Shown: positions 50,507 through 58,781 of the stretch, piece by piece
How positions within the stretch are numbered: the stretch's first letter is position 1
How the letters are laid out: each line of letters opens with the position of its first letter
Assembly (NCBI GenBank): GCA_018607905.1
Contig: JABBAP010000042.1
Coordinates: forward strand, 68,480-132,479
DNA from: Paracoccaceae bacterium
GTDB taxonomy: Bacteria > Pseudomonadota > Alphaproteobacteria > Rhodobacterales > Rhodobacteraceae
Direction: 5' to 3'
Length of the DNA stretch: 64,000 bases
The notes under the pieces: generated by a model
Databases searched by the model: none
Seen by the model: the letters and a program-made list of their open reading frames with translations, nothing else
What the model was told of the DNA's origin: nothing
Program-made: the position numbers and the translations under genes

Positions 50507-50914
50507 ATGAAAGACATCCCAATGGCCGATTTATTCAATGAAGACCTGTTCCTACAAGGCTTAGAGCAACGCAAATCCACACTTGGCGCCGAATACGTCG
50601 AAAAGAACCTCGCCGCCGCAGATGAGTTCACCCGCCCCTTTCAAGAAGCCATGACGGCGTGGTGCTGGGGCTTTGGTTGGGGCGACGATGTGATCCCCGC
50701 CAAAACCCGCTCCATGATGAACCTCGCAATGCTAGGCGCGCTAGGCAAAATGCACGAATGGGAAATCCACTGCAAAGGCGCATTAACCAACGGCGTCACC
50801 AAAGAAGAAATTCGCGCGATTATCCACGTGGTTGGTATTTATTGTGGGGTGCCTCAATCTCTTGAATGTTTCCGCGTCGCCCGTAAGGTGCTGGAGGAAG
50901 CAGGAGAATTGTAG
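50507..50914 (+). CDS. Carboxymuconolactone decarboxylase family protein
   Basis: A 135-residue all-helical protein: FTRPFQEAMTAWCWGFGWGDDVIPAKTRSMMNLAMLGALGKMHEWEIHCKGALTNGVTKEEIRAIIHVVGIYCGVPQS is close to PcaC-type 4-carboxymuconolactone decarboxylases of the beta-ketoadipate pathway. No other pca genes are in the window, so it may be a related decarboxylase or peroxidase-like protein. The start may be ATG 50507 or 50522; the track's start at 50432 lies in the leader. Confidence 0.85.
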   Translation: MKDIPMADLFNEDLFLQGLEQRKSTLGAEYVEKNLAAADEFTRPFQEAMTAWCWGFGWGDDVIPAKTRSMMNLAMLGALGKMHEWEIHCKGALTNGVTKEEIRAIIHVVGIYCGVPQSLECFRVARKVLEEAGEL

Positions 50915-50947
50915 TTTTTAGTGACGAATTACCATTCATGCATAAAT

Positions 50948-50978
50948 TGTGATCACATAAAAAATACGTGTGATCACA
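50948..50978. promoter_or_regulatory. Twin TGTGATCACA palindromes upstream of sucC
   Basis: TGTGATCACA occurs at 50948-50957 and again at 50969-50978. Their centres are exactly 21 bases apart, two helical turns, in AT-rich DNA 108-139 bases before the sucC ATG. A weaker relative, TGTGATATCA, is at 50994-51003. This is the layout of a double operator for a dimeric regulator (GntR- or LacI-type are candidates). The half-sites touch with no spacer, unlike a CRP site. Confidence 0.7.
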
Positions 50979-51086
50979 AAACACACAAAATCATGTGATA
51001 TCAACAATTATTGGCGTTTTCCTCTTTGAACGCTCTCTTTTCTATGGCACCAAATAGGAAATTCTTTGCCTTAAGGGACAGTCCAC

Positions 51087-52280
51087 ATGAACATTCATGA
51101 ATACCAAGCCAAACAACTCCTTAAAGAATATGGCGCGCCAGTCTCTGATGGTCGCGCTGTTTTACGCGCAGAAGATGCCAAAACAGCGGCGGGTGAATTG
51201 GATGGCCCGCTTTGGGTTGTAAAAGCGCAAATTCATGCGGGGGGCCGTGGCAAAGGCACCTTCACAGAGGCCGCCGCTGGTGATCAAGGCGGTGTGCGCC
51301 TGACGAAATCGGTAACTGAAGCCGCCGAGGAAGCGCAAAAAATGTTGGGCCGCACCTTGGTCACGCATCAAACTGGCCCCGCTGGCAAGCAAGTAAACCG
51401 TGTCTACATCGAAGACGGCGCAGGCATTGAAAGCGAACTTTACCTCGCTTTGCTGGTTGATCGGAACTCCTCTCGCGTATCTTTTGTTGCCTCCACTGAG
51501 GGCGGTATGGATATCGAAGAAGTCGCCGCAAACACTCCTGAGAAAATCGTAACTTTCACCGTAGACCCTGCATCTGGCCTATCTGCATTCCACGGTCGCC
51601 GAGTTGCATTCGCACTCGGCCTTGAGGGCAAACTCGTCAAACAGTGCGTCACGCTGATAGGGCAACTGTACAAAATGTTCATTGAGCGGGACATGGAAAT
51701 GCTCGAAATCAACCCACTGATCGTAACAGATGGTGGCGATCTAAAATGTCTTGATGCGAAAATGGGCTTCGATAGCAACGCATTATATCGCCAAAAAGCG
51801 ATCCTCGATCTGCGCGACGAAACTGAAGAAGACCCAAAAGAGCTGGCGGCTTCAAAATTCGATCTCAACTACATCGCGCTTGATGGTGAAATTGGTTGCA
51901 TGGTGAACGGTGCCGGCCTTGCGATGGCCACAATGGACATCATCAAACTTTATGGCTCCGAACCTGCCAACTTCCTTGATGTGGGTGGCGGTGCGACAAC
52001 AGAAAAAGTGACCGAGGCCTTCAAGATCATCACCTCTGATCCGCAAGTCAAAGGCATTCTCGTGAACATCTTTGGTGGCATCATGCGCTGCGACGTGATC
52101 GCAGAAGGTGTGGTTGCAGCGGTGAAAGAAGTCGGCCTACAAGTGCCACTTGTTGTCCGCCTAGAAGGCACAAACGTTGCCGAAGGCAAAAAGATCATCA
52201 ACGAAAGTGGCCTTGACGTAATCGCCGCCGACGATCTGGGCGACGCAGCAGAGAAAATCGTGAAAGCGGTTAAGGGCTGA
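51087..52280 (+). CDS. sucC: Succinyl-CoA synthetase beta subunit
   Basis: A 397-residue subunit of the TCA-cycle ligase converting succinyl-CoA to succinate with ATP or GTP formation. The ATP-grasp domain begins [19 protein letters not shown] and contains [13 protein letters not shown] and [11 protein letters not shown]. The C-terminal CoA-ligase domain has [15 protein letters not shown] and the FLDVGGGA motif. First gene of the suc region, behind the twin palindromes. Its partner sucD is 1.8 kb downstream rather than adjacent. Confidence 0.97.
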
Positions 52281-52282
52281 AC

Positions 52283-52714
52283 ATGCGCCGCCTCCTTTGT
52301 TCTTTCGTTGTGATCGTCATTGGGAGTTTGCCTATCAATGCAGGCGATCTCCCCGGTGCTTTGGCACTTCGGTTGCAACAAGGCGTTCAGGCCTGCGTAG
52401 CGTATTATAAAGACAACGCCGCTTTAACTTCGTTGCAACAGTTTGGGTTCTCTCCCAAAGGTACAGGTGCTGAAATTACGCTTGCGCCGCCTGTTGTGCC
52501 CAACAAGATAAAAGTGCGCGTTTACACCGAAGGGCCGCAAGACATTGAATGCGAGATTCATGCCAATTACACCCGAAATGACACCCAGAAACACGCCTTT
52601 AACCTAACTTTGGCGGTGCTGCAAAAAATGGCTTTTCTCGACTGCGCGAACACCACTATTCAAGCAAGGCAAAAACGATTTACCAAGACGGTACCACAAG
52701 TATGTTCCATTTGA
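52283..52714 (+). CDS. Hypothetical secreted protein inserted in the suc operon
   Basis: A 143-residue protein with a signal peptide ([19 protein letters not shown]). Four cysteines in the mature part ([27 protein letters not shown]) would allow two disulfides. It starts two bases after the sucC stop, so it is probably co-transcribed. No family recognised. Confidence 0.65.
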
Positions 52715-52763
52715 TCCGTGTCAAACAGGGCAAGGTGATGATTAAATTCAAAAGGCGGAACCT

Positions 52764-53309
52764 ATGATGTTTGGTTCAGCTTCTATTCACGAAACACGTT
52801 TTGCACCTGCGTCTTTGGTGTGTGCTGCGCTTAGCGCGATTTGCTTATCGCCGTCCACTGCCGCTGCGCGCGAACCTGCAATCACTGCTTTCACTGCCGC
52901 GTGTTTTAACAAAGGCTACACGCAACAACGCATCACCCAAGCAATGGAACACGCCATTGGTGGGCCGCTCTCGTTTGACCTTACGTTCTGGGATAAAGCG
53001 CTCGCGCCTGCACCCAACACCTCTGATTTTCATGAACGCCGCTGCGAAGTGGCCTTTGCGGGCGATCATACGCAAACCGCGATTGACGCATTGCGCGAAA
53101 AGATGGCAACGCCACCGGTTTTCGGACATAAAATTCCGCTTCCTGTGACCCATGCCGCAAATTCAGGCACTGCGCTGATCGAAGGGCGCGAATTGCTGCG
53201 CGGTCGAACGGCCGTGATCCAAATTGGCACGCGGCCGACCCAAACTGGCATCGAAACCTACATCATCGTAGATCGCCTGCCCGCAAATTGGCAGGATCAA
53301 TTGCAATGA
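52764..53309 (+). CDS. Hypothetical secreted protein inserted in the suc operon
   Basis: A 181-residue protein with a signal-like N-terminus ending in SPSTAAAREP (ASLVCAALSAICL is the hydrophobic core). Two cysteines follow (TAACFNKG and ERRCEVAF). The central part is predicted to mix helix and strand. It overlaps the methyltransferase gene by ATGA. Two successive ATG codons make the start ambiguous by three bases. Function unknown. Confidence 0.65.
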   Translation: MMFGSASIHETRFAPASLVCAALSAICLSPSTAAAREPAITAFTAACFNKGYTQQRITQAMEHAIGGPLSFDLTFWDKALAPAPNTSDFHERRCEVAFAGDHTQTAIDALREKMATPPVFGHKIPLPVTHAANSGTALIEGRELLRGRTAVIQIGTRPTQTGIETYIIVDRLPANWQDQLQ

Positions 53310-54109
53310 ACGCGCTTACTCCGTTCCGCCCCTGCCCTGCCTGTGACACGCCCGACGTGACAAACATGGCGCAATTTGCCCATGACACTTGGAAAATCGG
53401 GAAATGCAAACTTTGCGATTTTGTTTTCTTGCGAAACCCAACTGAATACGAAGCCTTGGAAGAGGATTTCGCTTGGGAAGAAACATTTTGGGCCGAAGAC
53501 GCTGAACGTAAAAAGAAGCGCGGCATACTGAAACGCGCTGCCTACCATGCCCGTATGCTCGGTTATCGCCTAAAAGGGGATCCCCAAAACAAATACGTCA
53601 AGCTGCTCGGTGCGGGTAAGATCCTCGATATTGGCTGCGGAGAGGTCGTACGTTGGACGGCTCCGTTTGAACCCTACGGCATTGAAATATCCAAACATCT
53701 TCATGCACGTGCTGACGCCAAAATGAAAGCGCTCGGCGGTGAATGTTTCCAAGGCGCAGGCGCGGAGCGTATTTTCACCCTGCCTGAAAACCATTTCGAC
53801 AGCGTGATGATGCACAGCTATTTGGAACACGAAGTCCAGTATCGCGAATTGCTTGCGGGGTGTTTTCGCTGCCTCAAACCCGGTGGCAGAGCGTTTATCC
53901 GTGTGCCAAATTTCAACTCGTTAAATCGCCGTTTGGTCGGGGCGAAATGGCCAGGCTTTCGCTATCCCGATCACGTCAATTACTTCACCCAACAGACCTT
54001 GCGCACCGCGGCGCAAGAAGCGGGTTTCGAATTTAAACTCACCAACAAAGCCAAAATCTGGCTCGACGACAACATTCAGGCATTGCTGACAAAGCCTGCC
54101 GTAACTTAA
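53306..54109 (+). CDS. SAM-dependent methyltransferase with N-terminal zinc ribbon
   Basis: A 267-residue protein. The N-terminus has C10PAC13 and C34KLC37, a likely zinc ribbon. The Rossmann methyltransferase domain has the SAM motif [16 protein letters not shown] and the later [16 protein letters not shown] and [13 protein letters not shown], as in the Methyltransf_23/type 12 groups seen in polysaccharide clusters. I use ATG 53306, overlapping the previous stop; the track is 18 bases longer. Its place between sucC and sucD is unusual. Confidence 0.82.
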
Positions 54110-54120
54110 GGACCAAAAAC

Positions 54121-55002
54121 ATGGCCGTACTGATAGATGAAAACACCAAAGTGATCTGCCAAGGCATCACCGGATCCCAAGGCACGTTCCACTCTGAGCA
54201 AGCCATTGAATACGGCACAAAAATGGTTGGCGGCGTTACTCCTGGCAAAGGTGGGCAATCTCACCTCGGCATGCCAGTGTTCAATTCAGTGCACGAAGCA
54301 AAACATGTAACTGACGCCAATGCTTCCGTGATCTACGTCCCCCCACCCTTCGCAGCAGATTCCATCCTTGAGGCCATCGACGCTGAAATGGAATTGATCG
54401 TTTGCATCACCGAAGGCATCCCCGTTCTTGATATGATGCGCGTGAAACGCGCGTTAGAAGGTTCCAAATCCCGCCTGATCGGCCCAAACTGCCCGGGCGT
54501 TATCACGCCAGATGCCTGTAAAATCGGCATTATGCCGGGCCATATCCACAAACGCGGCTCTGTTGGTATCGTTTCACGCTCTGGCACGCTCACTTACGAG
54601 GCTGTGGGCCAAACAACTGCGGCGGGCCTTGGCCAATCCACTGCTATCGGCATTGGCGGCGACCCGATCAAGGGCACCGAACACATTGATTGCCTAGAAA
54701 TGTTCCTTGCGGACCCAGAAACCCAATCCATCATCATGTTGGGTGAAATTGGTGGCTCCGCAGAAGAAGAAGCCGCGCAGTTCCTCGCAGATGAGGCAAA
54801 AAAAGGCCGCTCCAAACCAACAGCAGGTTTCATTGCTGGCCGCACTGCCCCTCCTGGCCGTCGAATGGGCCACGCTGGCGCAATTGTTGCAGGCGGCAAA
54901 GGCGGCGCAGAAGACAAGATCGAAGCCATGAAAGCAGCAGGTATTATTGTTGCAGATAGCCCTGCTGGTTTGGGCGAGGCAGTGTTGAAGGCGATAGGCT
55001 AA
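54121..55002 (+). CDS. sucD: Succinyl-CoA synthetase alpha subunit
   Basis: A 293-residue partner of SucC. The CoA-binding N-terminal domain has [21 protein letters not shown]. The phosphohistidine active site region shows as [17 protein letters not shown]. Length is normal. It is followed by a hydrolase gene whose ATG shares the stop (TAATG). Confidence 0.97.
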
Positions 55003-55742: not shown

Positions 55743-55823
55743 AGAACCGCCTTAGCCACGAACCTACATCACTATCGACCGAACGCATTTTTACCTCAGC
55801 TTCCTGACGAAGGAAAATTGACC

Positions 55824-58781
55824 ATGACCGAACATCCATCCAACGATCAATTTCACGCAGAATCCTTTCTGCAAGGCCACAACGCGGAGTACATTGAGCA
55901 ACTTTACGCGCGGTACGCACATGATCCAAACGCGGTGGATGCTGCTTGGCAGGATTTCTTTAAGGCGATGGGTGATCCCTCTGGGGAAGTAGTCGCGGAA
56001 GCCTCTGGTCCTTCGTGGGCACGTTCCGATTGGCCGCCTCAACCAGCCGATGATCTAACGGCCGCGCTCGATGGGCAATGGGGCGAAGACCCGGCCGCAA
56101 ATGCAGAAAAGAAAATCGCTGCCAAAGCAGAAGAAAAAGGCGTTCCAGTATCTGAGGGTCAAATCCGTCAAGCCGTGCTCGACAGTGTGCGTGCTTTGAT
56201 GTTGATCCGTGCATATCGCATCGTTGGCCACCTTAATGCTGACCTTGATCCGCTGAAAATGCATGCAAAAGACGACCTGCCAGAACTGCAACCAGCCAAC
56301 TATGGCTTTACCGAAGCGGATATGGATCGCCCAATCTTCCTCGACAATGTACTCGGCCTTGAAACCGCAACCATGCGCGAAATCCTCGCCATTGTGAAAC
56401 GCACCTATTGCGGCACGTTTGCCCTACAATACATGCACATTTCAGATGCGGAGCAGGCAAGTTGGCTGAAAGAACGGATCGAAGGTTTCGGCAAAGAAAT
56501 CCAGTTCACCAAAGAAGGCCGCAAAGCCATTTTGCAAAAGATGGTCGAGGCCGAAGGTTTTGAGAAATTCCTACACGTTAAATACGTTGGGACCAAACGG
56601 TTTGGCCTTGATGGTGGCGAAAGCCTGATCCCTGCGATGGAACAGATCATCAAACGGGGTGGCGCACTTGGCGTGCAAGATATCATTATCGGCATGCCCC
56701 ACCGTGGGCGTTTAAACGTATTATCCAACGTAATGCAAAAACCGTTCCGCGCAATCTTCAACGAGTTTCAAGGCGGCAGTTACAAACCAGAGAGCGTCGA
56801 TGGCTCTGGCGATGTAAAATACCACCTTGGCGCGTCATCAGACCGCGAGTTTGACGACAACAAGGTTCACCTTTCGCTCACCGCAAACCCCTCCCACCTA
56901 GAGGCTGTGAACCCTGTCGTTTTGGGGAAAGCCCGCGCCAAGCAAGGGCAGCTTGATGATGAAGACCGGATCAAGGTTCTGCCGATCCTGTTGCACGGCG
57001 ATGCGGCCTTTGCTGGCCAAGGTGTTGTGGCCGAATGTTTCGGCCTGTCTGGCCTAAAGGGTCACAAAACGGGCGGCACCATGCACATCGTGGTGAACAA
57101 CCAAATCGGTTTCACCACCGCGCCGCACCATTCGCGCTCCAGCCCTTATTGCACAGATATCGCCCTGATGGTCGAAGCACCGATTTTCCACGTGAATGGC
57201 GATGATCCAGAAGCAGTGGTTCACGCAGCCAAAGTTGCCATTGAATTCCGCCAAAAATTCCACAAAGACGTGGTTTTGGATATCATTTGTTACCGTCGCT
57301 TTGGTCACAACGAGGGTGACGAGCCGATGTTCACCAACCCGGAAATGTACACACAGATCAAGGGCCACAAAACCACGCTTGCGGTTTACACAGAACGTCT
57401 TGTGCGCGATGGCCTGATCCCAGAGGGCGAAATCGAAGACCAAAAAGCCGCCTTCCAAGCCTACCTGAATGAAGAATTCGAGAGCGGCAAGGATTACAAA
57501 CCCAACAAAGCCGATTGGCTCGATGGGCGTTGGTCGCACCTTGATAAACGCGGCGAAGAATACCAGCGCGGCGCAACCGCTGTGGACGAAGCAAACCTGC
57601 GCAAGGTCGGCAAAGCACTGACCACTCTGCCCAAAGGCTACAACGTGCACCGCACCGTGGCGCGTTTGCTCGAAACAAAACAAGAAATGTTCAACACGGG
57701 CAAAAATTTCGATTGGGCCACGGCCGAAGCGCTCGCATTTGGCACATTAATGACCGAAGGCTATCCTGTGCGCCTGTCTGGCCAAGACTGTACACGCGGC
57801 ACCTTTAGCCAACGCCACTCTGGCATCATCGACCAGAAAACCGAAGAACGATATCTCCCACTCAATTCTATTCCGGATACCCTCGCCGAATACGAAGTCA
57901 TCGACTCGATGCTCTCGGAATATGCGGTGCTGGGCTACGAATATGGCTACACGCTCGCTGAACCAAACGCCCTAACCCTGTGGGAAGCGCAATTCGGCGA
58001 TTTCGCCAATGGCGCACAGATCATGTTCGATCAGTTCATATCGTCTGGCGAAAGCAAATGGCTGCGGATGTCGGGCCTCGTTTGCTTATTGCCGCACGGC
58101 TATGAAGGCCAAGGGCCAGAACACTCCTCTGCGCGCCTAGAACGGTTCTTGCAAATGTGTGGCAACGACAACTGGATCGTCGCCAATTGCACCACGCCCG
58201 CGAATTATTTCCACATTTTGCGCCGCCAAATGCACCGCAGTTACCGTAAACCGCTCATCATGATGACGCCTAAATCTCTGCTACGGAACAAGATGGCCGT
58301 CAGCACTTTGGATGAAATGTCCGAAGGTTCCAGCTTCCACCGCGTGCTGTGGGATGATGCGCAATACGGCAACTCGGATACGAAACTTGCCAATGACGAC
58401 AAAATCAAACGGGTCGTCATTTGTTCTGGCAAAGTCTACTATGATCTGCTCGAAGAACGCGACAAACGGGGTATTACCGATATCTATTTGTTGCGCCTTG
58501 AACAGTTCTATCCATTCCCGGCCCAATCCATGGTCAAAGAATTGTCCCGCTTCTCGGGCGCTGAATTTATCTGGTGTCAGGAAGAGCCAAAAAACCAAGG
58601 TGCGTGGACATTTGTGGAACCCAACATTGAGTGGATTCTCACACGGATCGAACACAAAAACACACGGCCGATTTACGTGGGCCGCAACACATCCGCTTCG
58701 CCAGCCACTGGCCTAGCTAGCCAGCACAAAGCAGAACAAGCCGCGCTCGTGAATGACGCGCTGACATTGGAAGGTAAATAA
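55824..58781 (+). CDS. sucA: 2-oxoglutarate dehydrogenase E1 component
   Basis: A 985-residue thiamine-diphosphate enzyme that decarboxylates 2-oxoglutarate in the TCA cycle. The short N-terminal segment [22 protein letters not shown] tethers E1 to E2. The E1 core includes [28 protein letters not shown] and the ThDP motif region NNQIGFTT, followed by [18 protein letters not shown] precedes ATG 55824; the track's start is two codons earlier. sucB starts two bases after the stop. Confidence 0.97.

Follow-up and report, generated by a model that had tools for sequence, protein, structure and literature searches.

Twin palindromes upstream of sucC as a very probable AkgR-type operator pair in a member of the Rhodobacterales

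Two identical palindromes upstream of sucC, in the window examined here (the whole analysed stretch of 64,000 nucleotides), are very likely a tandem operator for AkgR, a GntR/FCD protein encoded about 15 kb away that would activate suc and sdh and repress its own gene. We take AkgR to be the Rhodobacter sphaeroides protein RSP_0981. In the proposed mechanism, two AkgR dimers would sit next to each other on the same helical face, with the -35 element about 52 bp downstream; occupancy of the sucC pair would activate the suc operon, occupancy of a similar pair upstream of sdhC would activate succinate dehydrogenase, and binding to a single site over the akgR -10 element would repress akgR, with AkgR itself presumably controlled by a TCA-cycle metabolite. 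A likely regulator is thereby assigned to an orphan operator pair. The features on which this reading draws are as follows, in window coordinates except for the last.

50948..50957, no strand assigned: AkgR-type operator site 1, TGTGATCACA, a perfect palindrome; exact match, kept in 26 of 29 genus loci
50969..50978, no strand assigned: AkgR-type operator site 2, TGTGATCACA; exact match, centre 21 bp from that of site 1
50994..51003, no strand assigned: weak third copy, TGTGATATCA, with two mismatches; unconserved and probably not functional
51026..51031, plus strand: putative suc -35 element, TTGAAC, some 52 bp beyond the site 2 centre, a conserved offset
51087..52280, plus strand: sucC, succinyl-CoA synthetase beta subunit (Pfam PF08442 and PF00549; ATG start at 51087)
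54121..55002, plus strand: sucD, succinyl-CoA synthetase alpha subunit (Pfam PF02629 and PF00549)
55818..58781, plus strand: sucA, 2-oxoglutarate dehydrogenase E1 (an ORF whose translation was read by eye; homologues lie 3' of sucD in related loci)
G000:C59:134569-135225, minus strand: probable akgR, gene for a GntR/FCD regulator of 218 residues (PF00392 and PF07729 above cut-off)

The preliminary description of this DNA had reported twin identical palindromes 21 bp apart upstream of sucC, and both exact copies were recovered there: a direct read of window positions 50947-50979 gives TTGTGATCACATAAAAAATACGTGTGATCACAA, placing the centres of the two TGTGATCACA sites at 50952.5 and 50973.5, exactly 21 bp apart. 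Both lie between a carboxymuconolactone-decarboxylase-like ORF, which ends at 50914, and sucC, whose start is 108 bp from the end of site 2. The same description had counted a third, weaker copy as part of the array, and this we reject: the centre of TGTGATATCA is 25 bp from that of site 2, which is not a whole number of helical turns and puts it out of phase, and the copy is partly kept by the nearest relative (L043) only, and not in other relatives. A weak terminator-like hairpin at 51013-51034, between the operators and sucC, overlaps the putative -35 element and is probably due to chance. Further downstream, the gap between sucC and sucD (52283-54109) holds three ORFs, one encoding a methyltransferase and two without a Pfam match; sucD directly follows sucC in several relatives, and a similar methyltransferase gene separates the two in L063, L177 and L178.

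Within the genus (the Amylibacter group of the Rhodobacterales), the pair is present in 26 of the 29 sucC promoters for which upstream sequence was available, at a spacing of 21 bp in 24 of these and 20 bp in the other two; in the set of named loci, it stands at 21 bp before each of the 11 sucC genes whose upstream stretch was long enough. In a survey of the family comprising 121 genomes, one per genus, pairs of the core GTGATCAC at spacings of 18-22 bp occur in 107, mostly exactly two to a genome. Thirty such loci were fetched, and the pair stands before sucC in 17, before sdhC in 11, before a putative fumC in one and within coding sequence in one. The fumC case, a third pair in genome G074 (L149:1501-1529), lies upstream of a gene identified by eye and suggests that the regulon sometimes reaches fumarase. 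Before both sucC and sdhC the pair is kept across genera although the flanks diverge; it is under selection. A core of two TCA-cycle promoters, suc and sdh, is thus furnished with these sites in most genera of the family.

The genome under study (3.17 Mb in 76 contigs) contains eight exact copies of TGTGATCACA. Four are intergenic: the two before sucC, one before sdhC and one before the GntR/FCD gene. The sdhC copy is one member of a pair, TTGTGATCACAGTAATTTTTTAGTGATCACAA, with a spacing of 20 bp. The remaining four, in pyrE, a GST-like gene, a thiamine-enzyme-like gene and a gene of the nuo operon, fall inside coding sequence and were set aside as chance occurrences rather than operators. Of the further TCA-cycle targets suggested earlier, sdh has such a pair before sdhC; icd and glt are absent among the exact copies and the approximately 80 one-mismatch copies inspected; these last yielded no further convincing TCA-cycle promoter. 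The proposal of a TCA-cycle regulator acting through the twin sites as its operators gains support from the pair of the same type before sdhC and from its retention at both promoters across the family, with binding itself a prediction.

It had also been stated that no gene for the regulator lies nearby. This proved incorrect: the GntR/FCD gene, with a single copy of TGTGATCACA 7 bp in front of it, is located 2.1 kb past the window edge, about 15 kb downstream of the operators and convergent with the suc operon, and so could not have been seen by a reader confined to the window. The closest named relatives of its product are from Amylibacter, and close orthologues, mostly 62-73% identical, are found in 104 of the 121 genera, this genome included, with a DNA-binding domain that is highly conserved in alignment. 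Occurrence of the orthologue follows that of the twin sites closely (both in 103 genomes, protein only in one, sites only in four, neither in 13; Fisher p = 3e-13, a value that serves only as a guide, the genomes being related). The single protein-only genome has a close orthologue without an exact pair. The four with sites only (G051, G065, G129 and G147) are either incomplete assemblies or harbor a diverged relative with the same site preference; G065 encodes a protein of 47% identity. The gene's own promoter bears the site in 25 of 30 genera and in 68 of 80 named loci. Residues N139, H143, H186 and D208 of the GntR protein were also considered in the alignment: the motif NLEFH stands in place of DxxFH, the metal-site motif of FCD domains, and its N, shared with McbR, shows no variation among the orthologues. 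The protein may therefore have an effector site unlike the one in FCD proteins that bind metal.

Whether the pair is a binding site at all, and for which protein, are questions on which these data bear jointly. The pair might be put down to coincidence, as two copies of a common short palindrome, single exact copies of which do occur within coding sequence of this genome; this has next to no probability. With GTGATCAC present 83 times per genome, chance would supply about 0.011 pairs at spacings of 18-22 bp against two observed, a figure computed from core density because a reversed-pattern control was probably biased low (the reversed core contains CTAG), and conservation before sucC and sdhC across genera with diverging flanks refutes the notion. 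A more substantive alternative is that the main binder of the pairs is a paralogous GntR/FCD protein rather than the one encoded nearby. Many genomes encode a further relative of about 40% identity, a 32%-identical Pseudomonas protein has been proposed to bind GTGATCAC (PMC6365646), and the four genomes with pairs but without a close orthologue would fit a substitute. Against this, it is the nearby protein that has the site in its own promoter and whose presence tracks the pairs, and we regard the paralogue as quite improbable.

The sign of regulation is the other point of contention. Most GntR/FCD regulators are repressors, and the same protein could in principle repress suc and sdh, its upstream dimers hindering transcription until a TCA-cycle intermediate frees them, a mode shared by many FCD-type regulators; the akgR site, which covers the promoter, indeed looks repressive. 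At akgR, a TTGAC-N12-site arrangement in 54 of 70 promoters puts the operator over the -10 element, from which autorepression would follow. The layout at suc and sdh is of another kind. A promoter scan before sucC found no consensus promoter; beyond the sites themselves, conservation is highest for a TT that 15 of 17 genera have at +51.5/52.5 relative to the site 2 centre, and this TT underlies the putative -35 element. Among 11 sdh promoters, the seven that carry a GTGAC element were measured, and six of these have it at +62.5 to +63.5; this genome's own sdh promoter is without the element. Where present, the element is farther from the pair than its suc counterpart by roughly one turn of the helix, so that the suc and sdh pairs would face polymerase alike. 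The pairs thus keep a conserved and considerable distance upstream from the putative -35 and leave the promoter uncovered, and AkgR has been named an activator (PMC6365646), both of which count against a repressor of suc and sdh; we judge that role unlikely, if clearly less so than binding by a paralogue. Taken as a whole, promoter geometry suggests upstream activation of suc and sdh by AkgR and repression of akgR itself. The conserved geometry, a 21-bp pair at a fixed promoter distance, is perhaps the most useful new detail to emerge, as it provides a precise and testable basis for the action of the regulator. It is conceivable, and we put this forward tentatively, that AkgR works as an obligate dimer pair on sites 21 bp apart, in fixed helical phase at suc and sdh throughout the family, and constitutes a cooperative dual-mode switch, one that activates from pairs and represses from its own single site. 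To our knowledge, such a switch would be unusual for a GntR/FCD protein.

Several known systems share features with the one described here. The half-site letters TGTGA and TCACA are common to CRP/FNR operators (TGTGA-N6-TCACA); a CRP/FNR site was rejected, as the half-sites here abut with no 6-bp spacer and the regulator found is of the GntR/FCD type. By sequence, the closest solved relative of the protein is McbR of Escherichia coli (4p9f), likewise GntR/FCD; it is a distant relative only, with a regulon different from the AkgR-type regulon seen here. Among the papers listed by a literature text search for TGTGATCACA, none concerned a bacterial regulator, and we found no study of this regulator in the Amylibacter-group genus. 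GTGATCAC is also the proposed binding palindrome of the PS417_07240-type GntR regulator of deoxyribonate catabolism in Pseudomonas simiae, which is 32% identical to AkgR and has other targets, a deoxyribonate oxidation cluster (PMC6365646). The most extensive likeness is to R. sphaeroides, where the GntR regulator RSP_0981 is predicted to regulate sucCD (succinyl-CoA synthetase), sdh and sucAB (2-oxoglutarate dehydrogenase) (PMC4344238); the GTGATCAC core is given for AkgR, termed an activator and attributed to Imam et al. 2015 (mBio), in PMC6365646. Like that regulon, with its GntR-family regulator, GTGATCAC site and targets sucCD, sucAB and sdh, the present genome has operators with the GTGATCAC core, suc and sdh as targets and a GntR-family regulator of its own, and the proximity of regulator gene and suc is matched in R. 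sphaeroides, where, judging by locus-tag numbers, the gene for the regulator is near both suc and sdh. The differences are that this is another genus, that sdh is on another contig and that three ORFs separate sucC from sucD. The GntR protein, a putative orthologue of RSP_0981, agrees with it, if only indirectly, in motif, targets and protein family. What is described here is very probably an already known regulon, in a genus new to it, rather than a new kind of system.
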